Shown here: positions 8,430-60,194 of the stretch, in pieces
Position numbering within the stretch: the stretch's first letter is position 1
Layout of the letters: every line of letters begins with the position of its first letter
Assembly: GCA_023475025.1 (NCBI GenBank)
Contig: JAMCWB010000051.1
Location: 1-64,000, forward strand
DNA: 64,000 bases
Source of the DNA: Gammaproteobacteria bacterium
Lineage (GTDB): Bacteria; Pseudomonadota; Gammaproteobacteria; Pseudomonadales; Pseudomonadaceae
Direction of reading: 5' to 3'
The notes under the pieces: generated by a model
What the model was told of the DNA's origin: nothing
The model's input: the letters and a program-made list of their open reading frames with translations, nothing else
Database searches by the model: none
Translations under genes and position numbers: made by a program

Positions 8430-9581
8430 TCATAGCCTAGACGTTGTACCCTGGCTATGCTGGATACGAGAACGCATGAGCAAAAAGCTCAGCGGTAACA
8501 CCACCAGGCTGAAGAGCAGAATCATGATCACACTTTCCCGGCGAATCCGGTAGGCATCTGCCAGCAGCTCATCCTCGGGAACCACCAGCGCCAGGTAGGT
8601 ATCAGGTGCTCCGGTGACATCCAGTTGTTGCTGCAAGACCCGCCATTGGCGGCCTTCCAGGCGCAGGCTGGTTTGCCGTTCGATGCTGTAGCCGTCATGT
8701 GACAGGGCAGCCAGCAAGGTACTGCCCAATTCATTAAAGTGGCGCAAGCGGCCGGGATCACCCTGATGCAAGCCATTCAAGCGGCGCGGATCATGGTAGG
8801 CGATGACAGTACCGTCATTGGCATAGAGTAAACGTTCGCTGGAAGGCGTTATCTGGATATCGGCCAGGCTGCGTGATAGCTGGGTAAGGGTCAGGTCTGC
8901 GCCCAGCACGGCTGCGGCACCGGCCTGACGGGCGAGGGTGGTGCCGTATTCATTGGTGGAAAAGAACACATAGGGCGTAGTGATGATCTGACTCTCGTTG
9001 GTACGTGCCTGCTGGTACCAGGGACGAGCTCTGGGATCAAAGCCGTCAAACCCGGGCTGCCGACTGGTCAGGGTTTGCAGCTCGCTGTCCAGAAATACGT
9101 GATCGACACGCGGTGGTTGCTGCTGAGCGCTGATATGCCAAGCCATCCACAGTGCGCTGTCAGGTCCCTGAAATCGTTCGCGAATGCTGTCGGAGCGCAG
9201 CGGGCGCAGCATCAGGTAATCGCCATTGTTCCAGCCTATATACAGCGAATTCAGCTGCGGGATATCGGTCAATACCCGCGCCATACGGGGCAGGTGAGTC
9301 AGCCGTTGCTCGAGGTTGTCAGTGGCAACCAGTGGATCCAGCGCCAGCAGGTTGAGAGCCTGGCGCGGCGGCAGGTAAGTCTGGTTCAGTGTGCCTTGTA
9401 CCCGCTCGCTGATATGTTCGAACAGGGTGTCGCCTGCGGCGAGAATGCTGCGACTGTGCTGGTGGTACTGCAAGGCTGCCAGGCTGATACCGGCGAGCGT
9501 GACGATAAAGGCAGTAAGCAGCATCAAGGGCCAAAACACCGTCGGCTGGCTGTGCTGCGGGATGACAGGCTCATCGACCAT
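8430..9581 (-). CDS. Membrane-anchored Cache-domain sensor without output domain
   Basis: A 383-residue protein with one N-terminal membrane helix (about residues 14-36), a large periplasmic region and a second helix near the C-terminus (IMILLFSLVVLPLSFLLM), leaving only about 15 cytoplasmic residues. The periplasmic part resembles a double Cache domain: FDPRARPWYQQA, followed by ITTPYVFFSTNEYGTTLARQ and VLGADLTLTQLS, is the usual pattern. Cache domains normally feed chemoreceptors, kinases or cyclases, but no HAMP, GGDEF, kinase or cyclase follows in any frame before the next gene. It may act with a separate partner or be a truncated receptor. Domain call good; role unknown. Confidence 0.75.
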   Translation of the reverse strand: MVDEPVIPQHSQPTVFWPLMLLTAFIVTLAGISLAALQYHQHSRSILAAGDTLFEHISERVQGTLNQTYLPPRQALNLLALDPLVATDNLEQRLTHLPRMARVLTDIPQLNSLYIGWNNGDYLMLRPLRSDSIRERFQGPDSALWMAWHISAQQQPPRVDHVFLDSELQTLTSRQPGFDGFDPRARPWYQQARTNESQIITTPYVFFSTNEYGTTLARQAGAAAVLGADLTLTQLSRSLADIQITPSSERLLYANDGTVIAYHDPRRLNGLHQGDPGRLRHFNELGSTLLAALSHDGYSIERQTSLRLEGRQWRVLQQQLDVTGAPDTYLALVVPEDELLADAYRIRRESVIMILLFSLVVLPLSFLLMRSRIQHSQGTTSRL

Positions 9582-9696
9582 GTGCAGTGAAATCCACTTT
9601 CAAGGGTGTTGGGTCAGCTGCCGGATCGGCAGCTGTGTTCCATTCACTATAGACCACAAGTGCGCGGCAGAGAGGACCTTACCGGGACGAAGCAGA

Positions 9697-10494
9697 CTAG
9701 CTGGCGATGGGCAGGCGGAAGAAGTCGTGTGCTGTGGCGCTGGTGTGCGCTGCCAGGTCTTCAATGGATTCATTCCGGCAGTCAGCCAGAACGCGCCCAA
9801 CCTCGGTAATGAAGGCAGGTTCATTGCGCCGGTTTTTGGGTTTCGGGGACAGGCTGCGCGGCAATAGCCAGGGCGCATCGGTTTCGATCATCAGGCGGCC
9901 ACGGGGAATATCGCTGACCAGAGGATGCAAGTGCTGCCCACGGCGTTCATCACAGATCCAGCCGGTAATGCCGATATGCAGATCCAGATCAAGATAGGCG
10001 TAGAGGGCTTCGCGCCCGGCAGTAAAGCAATGCACTACGGCAGCCGGCAAGCGATCACGGTAGGCTTTAAGGATGTCGATCAGGGTATCATCGGCGTCCC
10101 GTTCGTGCAGGAAAACCGGCAACTGAAGTTCAACTGCTAGCTCAAGTTGATCCTCTAATGCTTTGATTTGCTTGGGTCTTGGCGAGAAGTCACGGTTAAA
10201 ATCGAGGCCGCATTCACCGATAACACGCACGGCTGGATTGCTGGCCAGCTGACGCAGCTGCGTCTGGCTGTCGGCATGCCAGTCACGCGCCGAATGGGGA
10301 TGCATGCCAGCTGTGGCAAACAGGCGCTGCGGATCAGACTGGCAGAGCCGGAAAACCTCACCGGCCTGCTCCAGGCTGGTGGTGGTCAGCAGCATATGGC
10401 TGATACCGGCGTCCCAGCCCCGCTGCAACACGGCCTCGCGATCTTCTGCAAAGGCCTTGTCAGTCAGGTTGACGCCAATATCAATCCACTGCAT
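9697..10494 (-). CDS. tatD: TatD family metal-dependent hydrolase
   Basis: A 265-residue TIM-barrel hydrolase of the TatD family, which act as metal-dependent 3'-5' exonucleases. The N-terminus reads [11 protein letters not shown], the form found in TatD itself rather than the DTHxH of the YcfH/YjjV branch; [41 protein letters not shown] and [10 protein letters not shown] follow in order with the expected metal ligands. The ATG at 10494 has a GAGG upstream and lies seven bases after the stop of the DEAD-box helicase gene on the same strand, so the two form an operon. The longer in-frame extension (to 10548) overlaps the helicase and lacks family similarity. Confidence 0.92.
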
Positions 10495-51815: not shown

Positions 51816-53252
51816 ATGACAACACCCTTGCCCGATGGCCTGATTGTAGTAGCCAAAGCCGATTGCCCGACCTGTCGTCTGATCGAGCCCTTGTTGGCTG
51901 ATCTGGCGGCAGCGCAAGCATTGACTGTGTATGTGCAGGACTCTGCCGAGTATGCAGCGGCGCTGCCCGGCACCCTTTATGACCAGAGTCTGGAACACTC
52001 CTGGCGCTTGCATACCGAGTTTGTACCAACGCTGATCCGGGTGCAGAACGGGCAGGAGGTGGCGCGTACCTACGGCTGGCACAAGGAAGACTGGCGCGAG
52101 ATCAGTGGGGTCGCGACGCTGGGCGAAGAGCTGCCGGTAATGCGCCCCGGCTGTGGTTCAAAAACGCTGGAGCCGGGTATTGCCGAGGAATTGGAACTGA
52201 CCTTTGGTGATCTGCAGCTGCAATCGCGCGAAATCGATGTCAGCGCTGCCGACGACCCCATGGAGGCCTGCTTTGAGCGCGGCTGGAGTGACGGGCTGCC
52301 AGTAGTGCCGCCAACCCCGGTACGGGTATTGCGCATGCTCAAGGGTACTTCGCGCAAGCCCGACGAGGTGGTTGGCCTGATGCCACCGGACCTGTCGCCC
52401 TGCACCGTGGAGAAGGTCGCGGTGAATGCGGTCATGGCCGGCTGCAAGCCGGAATACATGCCCGTACTGCTGGCCGCCCTGGAAGCAGCGCTGGATGATG
52501 AGTTCGGCCTGCATGGGCTTATCTGCACCACCATGTTCGGCAGTCCGATGATCATGGTCAACGGTCCCATCGCCCAGGCCATCGGCATGAACGCCGGGGT
52601 CAATGCGCTGGGGCAGGGCAACCGCGCCAATGCCACCATTGGGCGGGCGTTGCAATTGATCATCCGCAATGTCGGCGGTGGTCGTCCCGGTGAAATCGAC
52701 CGCGCCACCCTGGGTAACCCTGGCAAGTACTCTTTTTGCTTTGCCGAAGCTGAAGACAGCGACTGGCTACCGCTGGCCCAGGAGCGCGGGATCGAAGCTG
52801 GCCGCTCTGCCGTCACCCTGTTCCCCGGCGAAGGGGTGCAAGGTATTGTCGATCAGAAGTCCCGCGACCCGGAATCCCTGGCCAGGTCCTTTGCCCTGTC
52901 GCTGCGCACTGTGGATCATGCCAAACTGGCCATGGCCGGCGATGCGGTGCTGGTGGTGTCACCGGAGCATGCGCGGGTATTTATCGAGGCCGGCTGGTCC
53001 AAACAGCGCCTGCGCGAAGAGCTGGAAAAGCTCTTGCTCGCCCCGGGCAAGGACCTGGTTGCCGGTGCCGGCGGGATTGCCGAGGGCATTCCAGAGAAGT
53101 TCAAGGACATGCAGGTGCCCAAGTTCCGGCCGGGCGGCCTGCTGATTGTGCGGGTCGGCGGTACGGCCGGCCTGTTTTCTGCAATTATTGCCGGCTGGGC
53201 TGCTTCTGGCCCGGTTGGTTCATCACCGGTCACCCGTGAGGTGCATGCATGA
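51816..53252 (+). CDS. Thioredoxin-fused UGSC-associated protein
   Basis: A 478-residue protein. Residues 1-110 look like a thioredoxin fold with CPTC at 17-20 (AKADCPTCRLIEPLL). From about 135 a larger domain begins (MEACFERGWSDGLPVVPPTPVRV) with conserved-looking cysteines (LSPCTVEKV, MAGCKPEYMP) and glycine-rich loops (NALGQGNRANATIGRAL, NVGGGRPGEID). I recognise the second part only as a long uncharacterised domain found beside UGSC proteins. It ends 13 bases before the UGSC selenoprotein gene. The dithiol motif could reduce the neighbouring selenoprotein (inference). No signal peptide, so cytoplasmic. Confidence 0.72.
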   Translation: MTTPLPDGLIVVAKADCPTCRLIEPLLADLAAAQALTVYVQDSAEYAAALPGTLYDQSLEHSWRLHTEFVPTLIRVQNGQEVARTYGWHKEDWREISGVATLGEELPVMRPGCGSKTLEPGIAEELELTFGDLQLQSREIDVSAADDPMEACFERGWSDGLPVVPPTPVRVLRMLKGTSRKPDEVVGLMPPDLSPCTVEKVAVNAVMAGCKPEYMPVLLAALEAALDDEFGLHGLICTTMFGSPMIMVNGPIAQAIGMNAGVNALGQGNRANATIGRALQLIIRNVGGGRPGEIDRATLGNPGKYSFCFAEAEDSDWLPLAQERGIEAGRSAVTLFPGEGVQGIVDQKSRDPESLARSFALSLRTVDHAKLAMAGDAVLVVSPEHARVFIEAGWSKQRLREELEKLLLAPGKDLVAGAGGIAEGIPEKFKDMQVPKFRPGGLLIVRVGGTAGLFSAIIAGWAASGPVGSSPVTREVHA

Positions 53253-53265
53253 ATGAGGACTGCAT

Positions 53266-53802
53266 ATGAAGGAAACAATACTGCTCGACCCGACGGCGGA
53301 AAATGCCCCGGCGCAGCGGGCACGTCTGGCGCGTCCGGACAGCCTGAACGGCAAGGTGGTTGGCCTGCTGGATATCTCCAAGCCCCGCGGCAATGTGTTC
53401 CTTGACCGTATCGAGGAGCAACTGGCTGCCATGGGCATCGAGGTCAAGCGTTATACCAAGCAGACCTTTACCCGTATCGCGCCCACTGAACTCAAGCAGC
53501 AAATGGCTGCGGAAGTGAACCTGCTGGTCGAAGGTCTGGCTGACTGAGGATCGTGCACGTCGTGCTGTATGCATGACATCGCCGACCTGGAGTCACGTCA
53601 GATCCCGGGAGTAGGGGTTGCCTCCAGTGAATTTGTTGAAGCGGCGGCCTTGCAGTCCAGGGCGCTGGGTTTCGACCCGGCCATGGTCTTTGTGCCGCAC
53701 CCGATTCAGGACCGCACCGACGCGGAAATGCGCACCCTGGCCGATAACGCCCTGGGCGAGATTCTGCGCCTGCTGCGCGCCGAACCTAATCCCGCCGACT
53801 GA
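53266..53802 (+). CDS. UGSC family selenoprotein (in-frame UGA = Sec94)
   Basis: GAGGA precedes ATG 53266. The frame runs 93 codons to TGA 53545-53547 and then continues without another stop to 53802, giving 178 residues if UGA is read as selenocysteine. The local sequence is D-U-G-S-C-T-S-C-C-M-H-D, the defining U-G-S-C motif of this family. The N-terminal half (GKVVGLLDISKPRGNVFLDRIEEQL) and C-terminal half (ESRQIPGVGVASSEFVEAAA, DPAMVFVPHPIQDRT) read as one continuous domain. The gene is followed on the same strand by selA, selB and selC. Standard callers would split it into two short ORFs. Catalytic role unknown; a redox function is expected from Sec94/Cys97. Confidence 0.9.
53545..53576 (+). 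promoter_or_regulatory. Candidate bacterial SECIS element
   Basis: Directly after the UGA, TCGTGCA (53551-53557) can pair with TGCATGA (53570-53576) over 7 bp with one G-U pair, leaving a 12-base loop (CGTCGTGCTGTA) that contains exposed G and U residues, at the distance from UGA expected for SelB recruitment. A shorter GCAC/GTGC alternative exists inside. Folding was done by eye. Confidence 0.5.
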
Positions 53803-53824: not shown

Positions 53825-54060
53825 TGTCGAGCTCCCGCTCGACAACAGACAACGCTGGACGAGGGGGACCTCGTCCCTCCCAGTATACATCTGAGCTTCT
53901 CCTGGGAATGTCGAGCTTTCGCTCGGCAGCACGGGCACGGCATGCCGTTCCCGTACAACGGCGGGGATGGCGTCCTTCGCGGCGGTGACGGGTTTAGGTT
54001 TTGCTGGGAGTGTCGAGCTCCCGCTCGACAAGGCGGGCACGCCATGCTGTTCCCCGACGG
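53825..54060. repeat. Cluster of REP-like palindromes between UGSC gene and selA
   Basis: A 20-base palindrome built on GTCGAGC...GCTCGAC occurs three times at 53825-53844, 53909-53928 and 54011-54030. The second and third are each followed by a related unit (GGCACGGCATGCCGTTCCC; GGCACGCCATGCTGTTCCC), and the first by another palindrome (GGACGAGG/CCTCGTCC, 53853-53872). They occupy the whole 278-base gap before selA. Such REP/BIME arrays are usually spread by RAYT enzymes; none is in the window. Confidence 0.8.
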
Positions 54061-54080: not shown

Positions 54081-55457
54081 ATGGCTAACCACCCACGTCC
54101 ACCCGCTGTTGATAAAGCCCTGGCCTGGCCCGGCATCCAGGCCCTGGTGGCCTGCCATGGCCGCACCCTGGTGCTGGATGCCTTGCGCGGCTCACTCCAA
54201 AAGTGGCGGGAGGGCGAAGTCAGCGATGAAGCCAGTCTGGTAGCCAACGTGCAGCAGCGCATCGAGCGCCTGCTCGCACCCTCCATGCAACCCGTGTTCA
54301 ACCTGACCGGCACCGTATTGCACACCAATCTGGGCCGCGCACCCTTGCCACCGGAAGCCGTGGCGGCCATGACTGCGGTCGCCACCGGGGCGAGCAACCT
54401 GGAATACGACCTCGCCAGCGGCCAGCGCGGTGATCGCGACAGCCACGTAGAAGCCTGGATTTGCCGACTGACCGGCGCCGAGGCCGCCACCGTGGTCAAC
54501 AACAACGCTGCCGCCGTGTTGCTGGTGCTCAATGCCCTGGCCCGGCGCAAAGAAGTGGTGGTATCCCGCGGTGAGTTGATCGAGATTGGCGGTTCCTTTC
54601 GTTTGCCGGACATCATGGCGCGGGCCGACTGCAAGCTGCTTGAAGTGGGTACCACCAATCGTACTCATCCGCGCGACTATGCCGAGGCCATCAGCTCGCG
54701 CACCGGCCTGCTGCTCAAGGCCCATACCAGCAATTACGCCGTGCAGGGCTTCACCCGTTGCGTCAGCGAGGCTGAATTGGCGGTCATTGCGCAGGAGTAT
54801 CGGGTGCCGCTGGCGATCGACCTGGGCAGTGGTTCGCTGATCGACATGGCCGCCCTGGGTTTGCCCGCCGAGCCGGTGGTGGCCGATGTATTGGCCCAGG
54901 GCGTCGACGTGGTGACCTTCAGCGGTGACAAACTGCTCGGCGGTCCCCAGGCCGGCATCATTGCCGGGCGCGCCGACCTGATCGGCAAGATTCGCAAAAG
55001 TCCGCTGAAACGGGCGCTGCGCTGTGACAAGGTCACCCTGGCTGCACTGGAAGCCGTGCTGCGCCTGTATGCCAACCCGGACACCCTGGTACAACGCGTG
55101 CCCACACTTCGCCTGCTGACCCGCGAACAAGCAGCCATTGAGCATACCGCCGATGCGCTCCTGCCTGCTCTGACCGCCTGGGCTGGAGCCGATTTTACTG
55201 TGGATACCTGTATCACCCATAGCCAGATCGGCTCCGGTTCGTTGCCATTGGACCTGCTGCCCAGCGCGGCCCTGCGCCTGCGTAGCACCAGTGGCAACAA
55301 GCGCACGCGCAGCCGTCAGTTGCGTGAACTGGCCGAACGCCTGCGTCAATTACCGCAACCGGTGATTGGCCGCATCAGTGATGACAGCCTGCTGCTGGAT
55401 TGCCGCTGCCTGGAAGAGCACCAGCCGTTGCAGGCGCAGTGGGAGGCGCAGCAGTGA
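54081..55457 (+). CDS. selA: L-seryl-tRNA(Sec) selenium transferase
   Basis: A 458-residue PLP enzyme converting Ser-tRNA(Sec) to Sec-tRNA(Sec) with selenophosphate. PLP lysine is Lys284 in FSGDKLLGGPQAG; NLTGTVLHTNLGRAPLP and TGAEAATVVNNNAAAVLL are typical. ATG 54081 is preferred over ATG 54075 because GGGGA then lies six bases upstream. Overlaps selB by four bases (GTGA). Length close to the E. coli protein. Confidence 0.95.
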   Translation: MANHPRPPAVDKALAWPGIQALVACHGRTLVLDALRGSLQKWREGEVSDEASLVANVQQRIERLLAPSMQPVFNLTGTVLHTNLGRAPLPPEAVAAMTAVATGASNLEYDLASGQRGDRDSHVEAWICRLTGAEAATVVNNNAAAVLLVLNALARRKEVVVSRGELIEIGGSFRLPDIMARADCKLLEVGTTNRTHPRDYAEAISSRTGLLLKAHTSNYAVQGFTRCVSEAELAVIAQEYRVPLAIDLGSGSLIDMAALGLPAEPVVADVLAQGVDVVTFSGDKLLGGPQAGIIAGRADLIGKIRKSPLKRALRCDKVTLAALEAVLRLYANPDTLVQRVPTLRLLTREQAAIEHTADALLPALTAWAGADFTVDTCITHSQIGSGSLPLDLLPSAALRLRSTSGNKRTRSRQLRELAERLRQLPQPVIGRISDDSLLLDCRCLEEHQPLQAQWEAQQ

Positions 55458-57473: not shown

Positions 57474-57568
57474 GGAAGGACATCGTCCCCGGTGGGGCGC
57501 CCGGACTTCAACTCCGGTGAGATGCGCAACGCGCGTCTGGTGGGTTCGACTCCCATGTCCTTCCGCCA
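57474..57568 (+). tRNA. selC: tRNA-Sec(UCA)
   Basis: A 95-base tRNA with the 8-bp acceptor stem peculiar to bacterial tRNA-Sec (GGAAGGAC/GTCCTTCC), anticodon loop ACTTCAACT holding UCA, a very long variable arm (57521-57541) and T loop GGTTCGACTCC with encoded CCA. It closely follows the E. coli selC layout. Lies 142 bases after selB on the same strand. Confidence 0.96.
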
Positions 57569-57682: not shown

Positions 57683-58942
57683 ATGGATTTTGCCTACAGT
57701 GAACGCACCCAGTCCCTGATCAATCAGGTACGCCAGTTTATGGACAGCCATATAGTGCCGCGTATCGGCGAGTGGCAACGCTCGGTGGCTGATGGCGTTT
57801 ACCCGCCACCCTTTATCGCCGACCTGAAAGCCCTGGCGCAGGAAGAGGGGCTGTGGAACCTGTTTTTACCCGGCCTGCACGATGATGAGCCCGGCACCCG
57901 GCTAACCAATCTGGAATATGCCCCGCTGGCAGAGATCATGGGGCGTGTGCATTGGGCTTCGGAAATCTTCAACTGCAACGCGCCGGATACCGGTAACATG
58001 GAGCTGCTGCACCTGTTTGCCACCCCGGAGCAGAATACCCGCCGGTTGCAGCCGCTGCTGCGTGGTGAGATTCGTTCGGCCTTTGCCATGACCGAACCGG
58101 ATGTCGCCTCCTCTGACGCCAGCAATATCCAGACGTTGATTCAGCGCGATGGCGACGACTATGTCATCAACGGCCGTAAATGGTTTATTACCAATGCCTC
58201 GCACCCGGACTGCGCCTTCCTGATCGTGATGGGCAAGACCGATCCCGATGCCGACCGGCACCGCCAACAGAGCATGATTATCGTCCCCTTCGATACCCCC
58301 GGCGTAGAGATGGTGCGCAATATTCCGGTGATGAACCATATTGCCGCCGAGGGCCATTGCGAACTGTTGCTGCGCAATGTGCGGGTACCGGCCAGCAATC
58401 TGCTGGGCACAGAAGGCGACGGCTTCATGATGGCCCAGGCACGCCTGGGGCCGGGCCGGGTGCACCATTGCATGCGGGCCATCGGCATGGCCGAACTGGC
58501 ACTGGAATTGATGGTTGATCGCGCCCAGGAGCGCAAGACCTTTGGTCGTTACCTGCACCAGCACGGCAGTATTGGCGACGGCATTGCCCGCTCACGCATG
58601 GAAATCGAGCAGGCACGCCTGCTGGTACTGAAAACCGCCTGGATGATCGATCAGGTCGGTGCCCGTGAGGCGCGCCGGGAGATTGCCCTGATCAAGGCAG
58701 TAGTCCCCGAGATGCTCGGCAAGGTAGTCGACCGCGCCATGCAGGTGTTCGGCGCCATGGGGCTGACGCCTGACACACCACTGGCCGATCTGTGGACCGG
58801 TGCCCGGGCGCTGCGGATTGCCGATGGCCCGGACGAGGTGCACCTGCGCAGTATCGCCCGCCTGGAACTGGGCTCCAGCGCCGAACGCCGCGGCTCCAGC
58901 AGTGACTATCTGACGCCAGCGGATGTGCTGCGCCGGCAATGA
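57683..58942 (+). CDS. Acyl-CoA dehydrogenase family protein
   Basis: A 419-residue FAD enzyme of the ACAD11-like group. FAMTEPDVASSDASN is the FAD-binding stretch, NGRKWFITNASHPDC and QVFGAMGLTPDTPLADLWTGARALRIADGPDEVH give the C-terminal signature. Oxidises an acyl-CoA to enoyl-CoA; chain length not predictable. ATG 57683 has AGGAGAG upstream. Apparently monocistronic, behind an Anr-like site. Confidence 0.9.
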   Translation: MDFAYSERTQSLINQVRQFMDSHIVPRIGEWQRSVADGVYPPPFIADLKALAQEEGLWNLFLPGLHDDEPGTRLTNLEYAPLAEIMGRVHWASEIFNCNAPDTGNMELLHLFATPEQNTRRLQPLLRGEIRSAFAMTEPDVASSDASNIQTLIQRDGDDYVINGRKWFITNASHPDCAFLIVMGKTDPDADRHRQQSMIIVPFDTPGVEMVRNIPVMNHIAAEGHCELLLRNVRVPASNLLGTEGDGFMMAQARLGPGRVHHCMRAIGMAELALELMVDRAQERKTFGRYLHQHGSIGDGIARSRMEIEQARLLVLKTAWMIDQVGAREARREIALIKAVVPEMLGKVVDRAMQVFGAMGLTPDTPLADLWTGARALRIADGPDEVHLRSIARLELGSSAERRGSSSDYLTPADVLRRQ

Positions 58943-59015
58943 TCCCTTTGGAGGTAATGCCCGGCCGGGCTGCATGAGGTAGAGTAAGCGCCTGACAGAC
59001 TCACAGGATGCCTGC

Positions 59016-59489
59016 ATGCTTACTCATCTCGACAGTCAGGGCCGGGCCAACATGGTCGATGTGACGGAAAAATCCGTCACCGCCCGCGAAGCCATTGCGC
59101 AAAGCCGCGTGCGCATGCGCCCGGAAACTCTGGCGCTGATCCAGAACGGCGGCCACCCCAAGGGCGATGTGTTTGCCGTGGCGCGCATTGCCGGCATCCA
59201 GGCGGCCAAGCGTACCCATGAACTGATTCCCCTGTGCCATCCGCTGCTGCTGACCAGCGTCAAGGTCGAACTGACCGCCGAAGCGCCTGATGCGGTTCTG
59301 ATCGAAGCACGCTGCAAGCTGGCCGGGCAGACCGGGGTAGAAATGGAAGCCTTGACCGCGGCCAGTATCGCCGCGCTGACCCTGTATGACATGTGCAAGG
59401 CAGTCGACAAGGGGATGGTCATCGAATCCACCTGCCTGATCAGCAAACAGGGCGGTAAAAGTGGCGATTATCAGCGCAGGGAGGCTTGA
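59016..59489 (+). CDS. moaC: Cyclic pyranopterin monophosphate synthase MoaC
   Basis: A 157-residue Moa[45 protein letters not shown] and the C-terminal [27 protein letters not shown] are diagnostic. Second step of molybdenum cofactor synthesis. Shares a tight operon with moaD and moaE; MoaA is not in the window. Confidence 0.96.
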
Positions 59490-59491
59490 AC

Positions 59492-59740
59492 ATGCTGACC
59501 ATCAATTACTTTGCCCGTTACCGCGAAGCCTTGGGTTGCGAGCAGGAGCAGCTGCCTTGGTCTTCAGCCCTGCAGACGGTGAACGACCTGCGTGAACACC
59601 TGCTGACCCGGGGCGACGCCTGGCAGATACTGGCCGAACCCAAGGTAATGTGTGCGCGCAATCAGGATATGTGCCAGCTGGATTCGCCATTGGCTGATGG
59701 CGATGAAATTGCCTTTTTCCCGCCGGTTACCGGGGGCTGA
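59492..59740 (+). CDS. moaD: Molybdopterin synthase small subunit MoaD
   Basis: An 82-residue ubiquitin-like sulfur carrier ending in the essential Gly-Gly (FFPPVTGG). GGAGG precedes ATG 59492, two bases after the moaC stop. It is thiocarboxylated and donates sulfur within the MoaD-MoaE complex. Confidence 0.94.
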   Translation: MLTINYFARYREALGCEQEQLPWSSALQTVNDLREHLLTRGDAWQILAEPKVMCARNQDMCQLDSPLADGDEIAFFPPVTGG

Positions 59741-59741
59741 G

Positions 59742-60194
59742 ATGGCGATTATCGTTCAGACTGACAGCTTTGATCCAGGCCAGTTGCTCAACCAGCTGCA
59801 TGCTGACCAGCTCGGGGTTGGCGCTGTCGTTGGCTTTGTCGGCTATGTGCGTGATTTCAATGACGGCCAGGACGTTGCCGGCATGCTGCTGGAGCACTAC
59901 CCCGGTATGACCGAGAAAGCCCTGAGCAAGATTGTCGATGAGGCCAGAGAACGCTGGCCTTTATTGGCCGTGGATGTGCTGCACCGGGTTGGATGGCTTG
60001 AGCCGGGCGAGCCGATTGTCTTTGTTGGCGTCAGCTCAGCACATCGACAAGCCGCGTTTGATGCGTGCAATTTCATTATGGATTATCTGAAAACCCGCGC
60101 ACCCTTCTGGAAGCGTGAAGAGACCTCAGAAGGGCCGCGCTGGGTGGATGCTCGCGAGATTGATGACCAGGCACTTGAGCGCTGGCTACGTTGA
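59742..60194 (+). CDS. moaE: Molybdopterin synthase catalytic subunit MoaE
   Basis: A 150-residue MoaE. GAVVGFVGYVRDFNDG, LEHYPGMTEKAL, HRVGWLEPGEPIVFVGVSSAHRQAAFDAC and KTRAPFWKREET (active lysines) are family marks. Starts one base after the moaD stop. Confidence 0.95.
   Translation: MAIIVQTDSFDPGQLLNQLHADQLGVGAVVGFVGYVRDFNDGQDVAGMLLEHYPGMTEKALSKIVDEARERWPLLAVDVLHRVGWLEPGEPIVFVGVSSAHRQAAFDACNFIMDYLKTRAPFWKREETSEGPRWVDAREIDDQALERWLR

Follow-up and report, generated by a model that had tools for sequence, protein, structure and literature searches.

The window, by which we mean the whole 64,000-nucleotide stretch of DNA that was analysed, carries on one strand and in this order a gene that we call the partner, a UGSC-family selenoprotein gene, selA, selB and the gene for tRNA-Sec. 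The features of this locus are as follows:

51816–53252, forward strand: partner gene, 478 residues, without a Pfam or NCBIfam name; an N-terminal thioredoxin-like domain and an orphan C-terminal domain
51864–51875, forward strand: CPTC redox motif, partner residues 17–20; CPTC in 68 of the 75 partners longer than 440 residues
52239–53249, forward strand: C-terminal domain of the partner, residues 142–478, with conserved Cys210 and Cys308
53255–53259, forward strand: likely ribosome-binding site GAGGA, read from the sequence, 6 nt before the UGSC ATG and 2 nt past the partner stop
53266–53802, forward strand: UGSC selenoprotein gene, 178 residues with Sec94; PF24696 137 bits, NF041046 142.7 bits
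53545–53547, forward strand: TGA read as Sec94, the U of UGSC; TGA in 80/80 relatives, TGC or TGT in 10 Cys-type homologues
53559–53577, forward strand: SECIS-like hairpin; 7-bp stem (53559–53565 with 53571–53577), loop UGUAU (53566–53570), loop 18 nt past the UGA
54081–55457, forward strand: selA, L-seryl-tRNA(Sec) selenium transferase; TIGR00474 572 bits
55454–57331, forward strand: selB, Sec-specific elongation factor; TIGR00475 386 bits; its GTG start overlaps the selA stop
57474–57568, forward strand: selC, tRNA-Sec, anticodon TCA; found by ARAGORN; Rfam RF01852 80.1 bits

A UGA within one continuous UGSC-family gene

The initial annotation had read the frame 53266–53802 through the TGA to give the motif U-G-S-C, had placed it directly upstream of selA, selB and a tRNA-Sec gene, and had named the product a UGSC-family selenoprotein. 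We found its coordinates, frame and motif to be exact and the neighbours to be as described (TIGR00474, TIGR00475, RF01852), and the family name agrees with matches to PF24696 and NF041046, a SECIS-like hairpin, the existence of Cys homologues and the local selA-selB-tRNA-Sec set. Around U94 the product reads ...LVEGLADUGSCTSCCMHDIADLE..., and the frame ends at a TGA stop (53800–53802). Comparison of the 178-residue read-through product with UGSC-family models, one of the checks proposed at the outset, gave scores (137 bits for Pfam, 142.7 bits for NCBIfam) above both curated cut-offs, which are 25 bits for PF24696 and 125 bits for NF041046; Sec was scored as Cys here and throughout the profile work. 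Each half also matched PF24696 by itself, the 93 residues before the TGA with 54.8 bits at profile positions 2–92 and the 84 residues after it with 61.4 bits at positions 94–171, and because these separate matches meet at the Sec position the read-through is not a product of chance. Pairwise comparison over the first 510 bases with 22 near relatives counted 180, 130 and 924 differences at codon positions 1, 2 and 3 before the TGA, and 113, 74 and 483 after it.

The 80 relatives used below (L002–L081, the best 80 of 170) are close kin found by patterns from the window's UGSC protein, and all 80 have TGA at the Sec-codon position. A second proposed check was for Cys in place of Sec at residue 94, and this was seen in the 10 Cys-type homologues compared, which have TGC or TGT there. 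The motif [U/C]GSC (U94-G-S-C97) is invariant in 48/48 aligned members when Sec is read as C, Cys97 included, while Cys100 is replaced by Trp in six of the 48 and residue 101 is Cys in only 28; the invariance of Cys97 and the variability of Cys100 and Cys101 mark Sec94/Cys97 as the core. A redox role, as had been suggested for Sec94/Cys97 plus Cys100/Cys101, is plausible, with the first pair as its core. Alignment A1 excludes L029, L048, L077 and L083 and trims L088, and alignment A2 excludes L028, L034, L042, L044, L046, L048, L061, L076 and L088.

Counted from the U of UGA, the hairpin pairs positions 14–20 with 26–32, features that fit the bacterial SECIS model as outlined in the passages on it in PMC13188914. 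A motif regular expression picked 111 Sec-type sequences, 92 of them distinct and the window among these. All seven stem pairs form in 80 of the 92 and at least five in every one; loop positions 2–3 are GU in 92/92, and C-G makes up the innermost pair in 87 sequences, G-C in the other five. Among the Cys forms all seven pairs are kept in 2/10, and the loop GU in one of the ten loops printed. Synonymous choice collapses over the hairpin, with 1.0–1.2 effective codons at Thr98, Ser99, Cys100, Cys101 and Asp104, 1.66 at His103, and 1.57–4.86 at the other non-Sec positions tabulated; Met102 allows no synonymous choice. In 87 of the 92 sequences the folding energy was lower than the average for synonymous recodings (mean z -1.37; -1.19 for the window's own sequence). 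Against dinucleotide shuffles the window's hairpin gave z -2.36 over 45 nt and -1.66 over 50 nt, versus 0.07 over 57 nt, and energy alone is therefore weak evidence for it.

A single UGSC-family gene spans the UGA without a break and carries a SECIS-like hairpin. That the TGA is instead a real stop and the downstream frame a remnant is scarcely credible: selD was not found in the window's assembly (91% complete), but the TGA is kept in 80/80 relatives, the third-position bias and the family match run on both sides of it, and both the hairpin and the Cys homologues argue for Sec.

There is good support for placing the window gene in a known selenoprotein family (PF24696, NF041046): the motif is the same, the match is full-length on both sides of Sec and nothing essential sets the gene apart. 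The family has been in print since at least 2008, when a 'UGSC-containing protein' was described in the Global Ocean Sampling selenoproteome as the fifth most numerous selenoprotein family, with 255 sequences (PMC2398784, Table 2). It also appears in the reviews PMC9312934 and PMC13188914, in an algal survey (PMC7539508) and in a bacterial survey (PMC5029168), and in Geodermatophilaceae UGSC uses UAG as its Sec codon (PMC5330540). The initial annotation had the family known mainly from marine surveys; it does occur in the ocean survey, but the text of that survey has it most used in non-marine samples (PMC2398784), and Pfam and NCBIfam models exist. Its expectation that annotation pipelines would report two junk ORFs holds for one deposited record, that of L095 (Paracoccus), in which the TGA-type gene is annotated as two hypothetical proteins.

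The sel genes and their surroundings

For selA, a start at 54081 is likelier than the mechanical start at 53967, the N-terminal domain of SelA beginning after 54081. Sel neighbours were counted in the 63 loci with at least 4.5 kb of downstream sequence: 37/63 combine a downstream selA no more than 1 kb away and a downstream selB no more than 4 kb away with a tRNA-Sec in the locus, and 21/63 have no selB within 4 kb downstream, among them L080, which has selA and selB upstream. No selD was found above the cut-off in the window's genome, the assembly of which is 91.4% complete, and selD was present in 16/16 other UGSC genomes tested; its absence from the window's assembly is probably a gap. Formate dehydrogenase was considered as an explanation for the sel genes and rejected, as no Fdh-alpha-like match in the window's genome contains a TGA.

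The array could be taken to mean that UGSC and its partner serve selenium supply or sensing, and selA, selB and tRNA-Sec do stand together in 37 of the 63 loci. We consider this very improbable: 21 of the 63 loci are without selB within 4 kb downstream, 10 homologues use Cys, and the annotated plasmid copies sit among catabolic genes. The selenium handling that the initial annotation had offered for the site likewise finds no support, given the Cys forms and those 21 loci.

Several further observations concern the surroundings of the pair. Between UGSC and selA, at 53826–54029, lie three GTCGAGCTCCCGCTCGAC-like palindromes, two exact and one with three mismatches, versus 0.05 copies expected by chance; these resemble REP elements. 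The Rfam scan of the window found nothing beyond two tRNA genes, and the promoter and terminator scan found the window no richer than shuffles. Downstream of tRNA-Sec, 57683–60194 holds first an acyl-CoA dehydrogenase gene and then further frames that resemble moaC, moaD and moaE. L041, L048 and L065 seemed at first to have UGSC fused to selA, but this was rejected, since a stop codon separates the two genes in these loci. The window's selB is 70–72% identical to those of L002, L003 and L020 and 46–48% identical to those of Halopseudomonas-type loci, in which UGSC and the partner are 86–92% identical to the window's; this contrast in sequence identity suggests that selB may have been replaced or transferred. 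L002 and L003 have selB after UGSC, and neither locus showed a selA. By eye, a thiolase-like gene follows UGSC in eight loci (L062, L066, L068, L069, L071, L074, L075 and L078), in which no selA or selB was found and several of which then have a transporter-like gene set, again judged by eye.

A partner gene that goes together with UGSC

The initial annotation omitted the partner gene at 51816–53252, which is part of the system, and the GrdB/PrdB link taken up below. A CxxC lies within the first 60 residues of all 75 partners longer than 440 residues among the window's relatives, and the N-terminus matches thioredoxin in the PDB (profile E 5e-5; Foldseek TM about 0.5 on target length), although the window's partner protein alone stays below Pfam cut-offs. 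The likeness to thioredoxin lies in this domain with its CPTC, the difference in its fusion to an orphan domain and its place beside UGSC. In a diverse partner set (A8) Cys210 is conserved in 23/23 and Cys308 in 21/23, and the C-terminal domain carries the conserved motifs DGLPxVPPT, NAVMAGC, VNGP, GNRANATIGR and GKYxxCxAE. We found no credible relative of this domain in PDB, Pfam or NCBIfam, and the predicted partner model (pLDDT 89.9) has, beyond the thioredoxin domain, no credible PDB match among the 50 Foldseek matches listed. Two candidate identities were rejected: homology to GrdE/PrdA, for which hhalign gave 0.1–0.4% against GrdE, PrdA and both (GrdE against PrdA, run as a sanity check, gave 99.1%), and class I fumarase, which Foldseek had offered (E 1e-3, TM 0.2) and for which hhalign gave only 0.1–0.2%. 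Many distant partners are without the thioredoxin-like domain. Six partner loci had N runs or no start and were kept out of the alignment rows.

UGSC and the partner gene occur as a pair. In 78 of the 80 relatives (the best 80 of 170) the partner match ends 0–109 nt upstream of the UGSC match; the two exceptions are L020, cut by the contig end, and L036, broken by N runs. Among 398 genomes of Pseudomonadota, the window's phylum, UGSC (PF24696, E 1e-3) and the partner (profile, E 1e-10) were found in the same five. A PF24696 search of 346 genomes of the phylum of L070, which we take as actinobacteria because L070 is an Ilumatobacteraceae record, gave 28 matches, 26 of them above the cut-off; these phylum labels of the genomes searched are inferred from the named loci. 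Thirty loci were fetched, and the UGSC profile confirmed 27 (22 Sec, 4 Cys, 1 unclear), every one with a same-strand partner within about 200 nt, upstream in 24 and downstream in three. Among 24 plasmid records with a partner match, UGSC lies beside or is fused to the partner in 23, eight of them established by tblastn, two by inspection (Roseovarius L094 and Paracoccus L095) and 13 of the remaining 14 by profile; in L205 the UGSC profile finds no UGSC domain in the 6.7-kb stretch that holds the partner copy. Some haloarchaeal loci carry two partner copies. Three of the eight plasmid loci L088–L095 have trxB close by, one of the three also trxA, and tblastn found neither gene in the other five.

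In Acidovorax L088 the partner and UGSC form one frame with the TGA in the UGSC part. This is probably the 'UGSC/Unknown_1' fusion of PMC2398784, and we infer from the description there that its 'Unknown_1' domain is probably the C-terminal domain of the partner. By eye, the fused frame of L088 runs on into transposase-looking sequence. In L060 a long frame at 9159–10490 (MSLEQCGIPTIAV...) matches 75 other loci of the 80, and may be another UGSC-partner fusion, lying some 600 bases past the first pair on its downstream side.

Kinship to GrdB/PrdB and a proposed enzyme

The AlphaFold2 model of UGSC, built from 40 aligned members (pLDDT 93.8, pTM 0.86), predicts alternating strands and helices, with Sec94 between the third strand (86–92) and helix 95–110, at the start of a helix that follows a strand. 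Foldseek placed the model with flavodoxins, F420H2 oxidase and other alpha/beta proteins of the PDB (E about 1e-4, TM 0.36–0.52), for which 'flavodoxin-like' is a class-level label of a predicted fold. Comparison of UGSC with PDB sequences returned nothing credible.

In print, UGSC is called Trx-like and its function uncharacterised. The model departs from that label in its topology, since Sec follows the third strand. In the thioredoxin topology the redox motif follows the first strand of the core. With this, and with no thioredoxin among the 50 PDB matches listed for the UGSC model, the printed label is unsupported. A thioredoxin-fold redox protein, acting as a thiol-disulfide or peroxide reductase like the Prx-, Trx- or Grx-like selenoproteins, is accordingly an improbable reading of UGSC: the UxxC spacing does resemble CxxC, but the model is confident, its listed PDB matches are mostly flavodoxin-type or related alpha/beta proteins, and the thioredoxin domain is located in the partner instead.

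A kinship was detected with GrdB/PrdB (PF07355), the Sec-bearing subunits of the reductases that act on glycine, sarcosine, betaine and D-proline. Profile comparison by hhalign of 48 UGSC members with 11 GrdB/PrdB proteins, one of them a PrdB with Cys, gave 94.3% (E 9.6e-8) over 89 columns with Sec on Sec, from shallow alignments (Neff 3.4 and 2.5); the GrdB/PrdB proteins came from Peptoclostridium, Acetoanaerobium, Enterococcus, Ligilactobacillus and Terrisporobacter records. The motif U-G-x-C-T-x-C is common to UGSC and GrdB, and the His-Pro of UGSC aligns with the His/Tyr-Pro of GrdB. The score of 59.7 compares with a best of 22.7 in 200 column shuffles and with 24.6 for the reversed control. 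With the motif masked in both profiles the score was 36.0 in the same register, and the probability fell to 36.8%. Eight other families reached at most 3.9% against UGSC, and the proteobacterial Cys-type GRDB relatives (A5) only 34.5%. PF24696 matched 2/11 of the GrdB/PrdB proteins when these were read through their UGA (best E 8.4e-5).

From these profile comparisons, UGSC appears to be a remote homologue of the GrdB/PrdB Sec subunit with Sec94 at the same place, a relationship that we consider well supported. Among PDB entries we recognised no solved structure of GrdB or PrdB. In the reverse direction PF07355 matched none of the 48 UGSC members (E threshold 10, HMMER filters on). Nor did GRDB match in 58 close relatives, but control genomes were equally silent, so that this second search is uninformative. 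The PF07355 model has 347 positions and covers GrdB to residue 349, one short of Sec350, which would explain why GRDB was missing from the Pfam search of the 48 members; ending one residue before Sec, the model has a blind spot in which homology across the active site is lost. It looks as if it had been built from proteins cut at UGA.

What the two systems have in common is the 89-column match with Sec on Sec, the UGxC motif (UGxCTxC with GrdB) and probably a two-subunit make-up. They differ in that UGSC has only about 178 residues and its partner is not GrdE/PrdA. Their hosts differ as well: the UGSC members found here come from proteobacteria, actinobacteria and haloarchaea, in a searched set that lies outside Clostridia, apart from one Sporomusa plasmid with a UGSC-partner fusion that has neither Sec nor Cys. 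Substrate binding in glycine reductase falls to GrdB, and thioredoxin serves as its reductant (PMC13188914). In the fluoroacetate reductase FarB/FarE of Synergistota, relatives of GrdB/GrdE, Sec has been proposed to attack the C-F bond (PMC10838667). The present pair would resemble FarB/FarE in that its Sec attacks a C-X bond adjacent to a carboxylate. It differs in that FarB has a GrdE-type partner, whereas the UGSC pair showed no recognisable relative of GrdE. The family itself is already known; what is new here is that UGSC is half of a pair and that its profile matches GrdB/PrdB. In the portions of the open-access literature searched we found no statement of the UGSC-GrdB/PrdB link and no two-gene system with a built-in thioredoxin.

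We suggest that 51816–53802 probably encodes a two-subunit, thioredoxin-coupled selenoenzyme of the GrdB/PrdB kind, in which the partner replaces the pyruvoyl subunit. Sec94 would attack a substrate bound at the UGSC-partner interface, Cys97 would resolve the intermediate to a selenenylsulfide, and the partner's own thioredoxin domain, through CPTC, may then reduce this; for partners that have no such domain, separate TrxA/TrxB could do so. The C-terminal domain of the partner would stand in for the pyruvoyl subunit GrdE/PrdA without sharing its ancestry, and because the partner is unrelated to these proteins pyruvoyl chemistry cannot simply carry over. By analogy with GrdB/PrdB, the chemistry would most likely be a reductive cleavage that breaks a C-X bond adjacent to a carboxylate. 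The annotated neighbours on plasmids (CoA-transferase, isocitrate-lyase-like, tripartite or TRAP transporter and LysR genes) suit organic-acid catabolism. More tentatively, and with somewhat less than even confidence in the whole, UGSC and the partner may form an unrecognised class of thioredoxin-driven selenoenzymes, mostly outside amino-acid-fermenting (Stickland) organisms, that carry out reductive C-X cleavage with a GrdB/PrdB-type Sec subunit re-paired with an unrelated substrate subunit, possibly of new fold, that carries its own thioredoxin domain. The constant partner, the built-in electron donor and the GrdB/PrdB link together open the way to a two-protein assay and give a testable lead on the reaction.

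A rather unlikely alternative, though one with points in its favour, is that GrdB ancestry has been kept for another reaction, such as that of an isomerase or lyase, or one that reduces a metal(loid) or an organosulfur compound. In its favour, the partner shows no relationship to GrdE/PrdA, the neighbour genes differ between lineages, and the partner is retained with three homologues that have no Sec or Cys, of which two adjoin aconitase X and DUF126 genes. Reductive cleavage by a thioredoxin-coupled enzyme nevertheless remains our preferred reading, as Sec/Cys94 and Cys97 are invariant in the 48 aligned members and the presence of a thioredoxin domain, or of trx genes nearby, speaks for redox turnover in the window's branch.

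The three homologues without Sec or Cys (L143, Vibrio L204 and Sporomusa L208) are UGSC-partner fusions with the active site DMGTS, at 2275–3960 in L204 and 2236–3960 in L208, and because these distant fusions read DMGTS the UGSC-partner pair need not be redox-active everywhere. The aconitase X and DUF126 genes lie near the fusions of L204 and L208. Active-site variants outside the 48-member alignment are UGAC, UGGC, CSTC and DMGTS. The active sites GHCSTC, GDCGSCTKF and ACGSCSMW occur in L197–L201 (Neorhizobium), L206–L207 (haloarchaea) and L203 (Variovorax), in each case beside or fused to the partner, and in L201 the genes immediately upstream are those of a malonyl-CoA synthase and decarboxylase. 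The Arthrobacter UGSC protein (L091, 8989–9801) has 271 residues, about 90 more than most, and one of the 48 UGSC members, presumably this one, matches the NifU-like family PF01106 at 4.3e-6.
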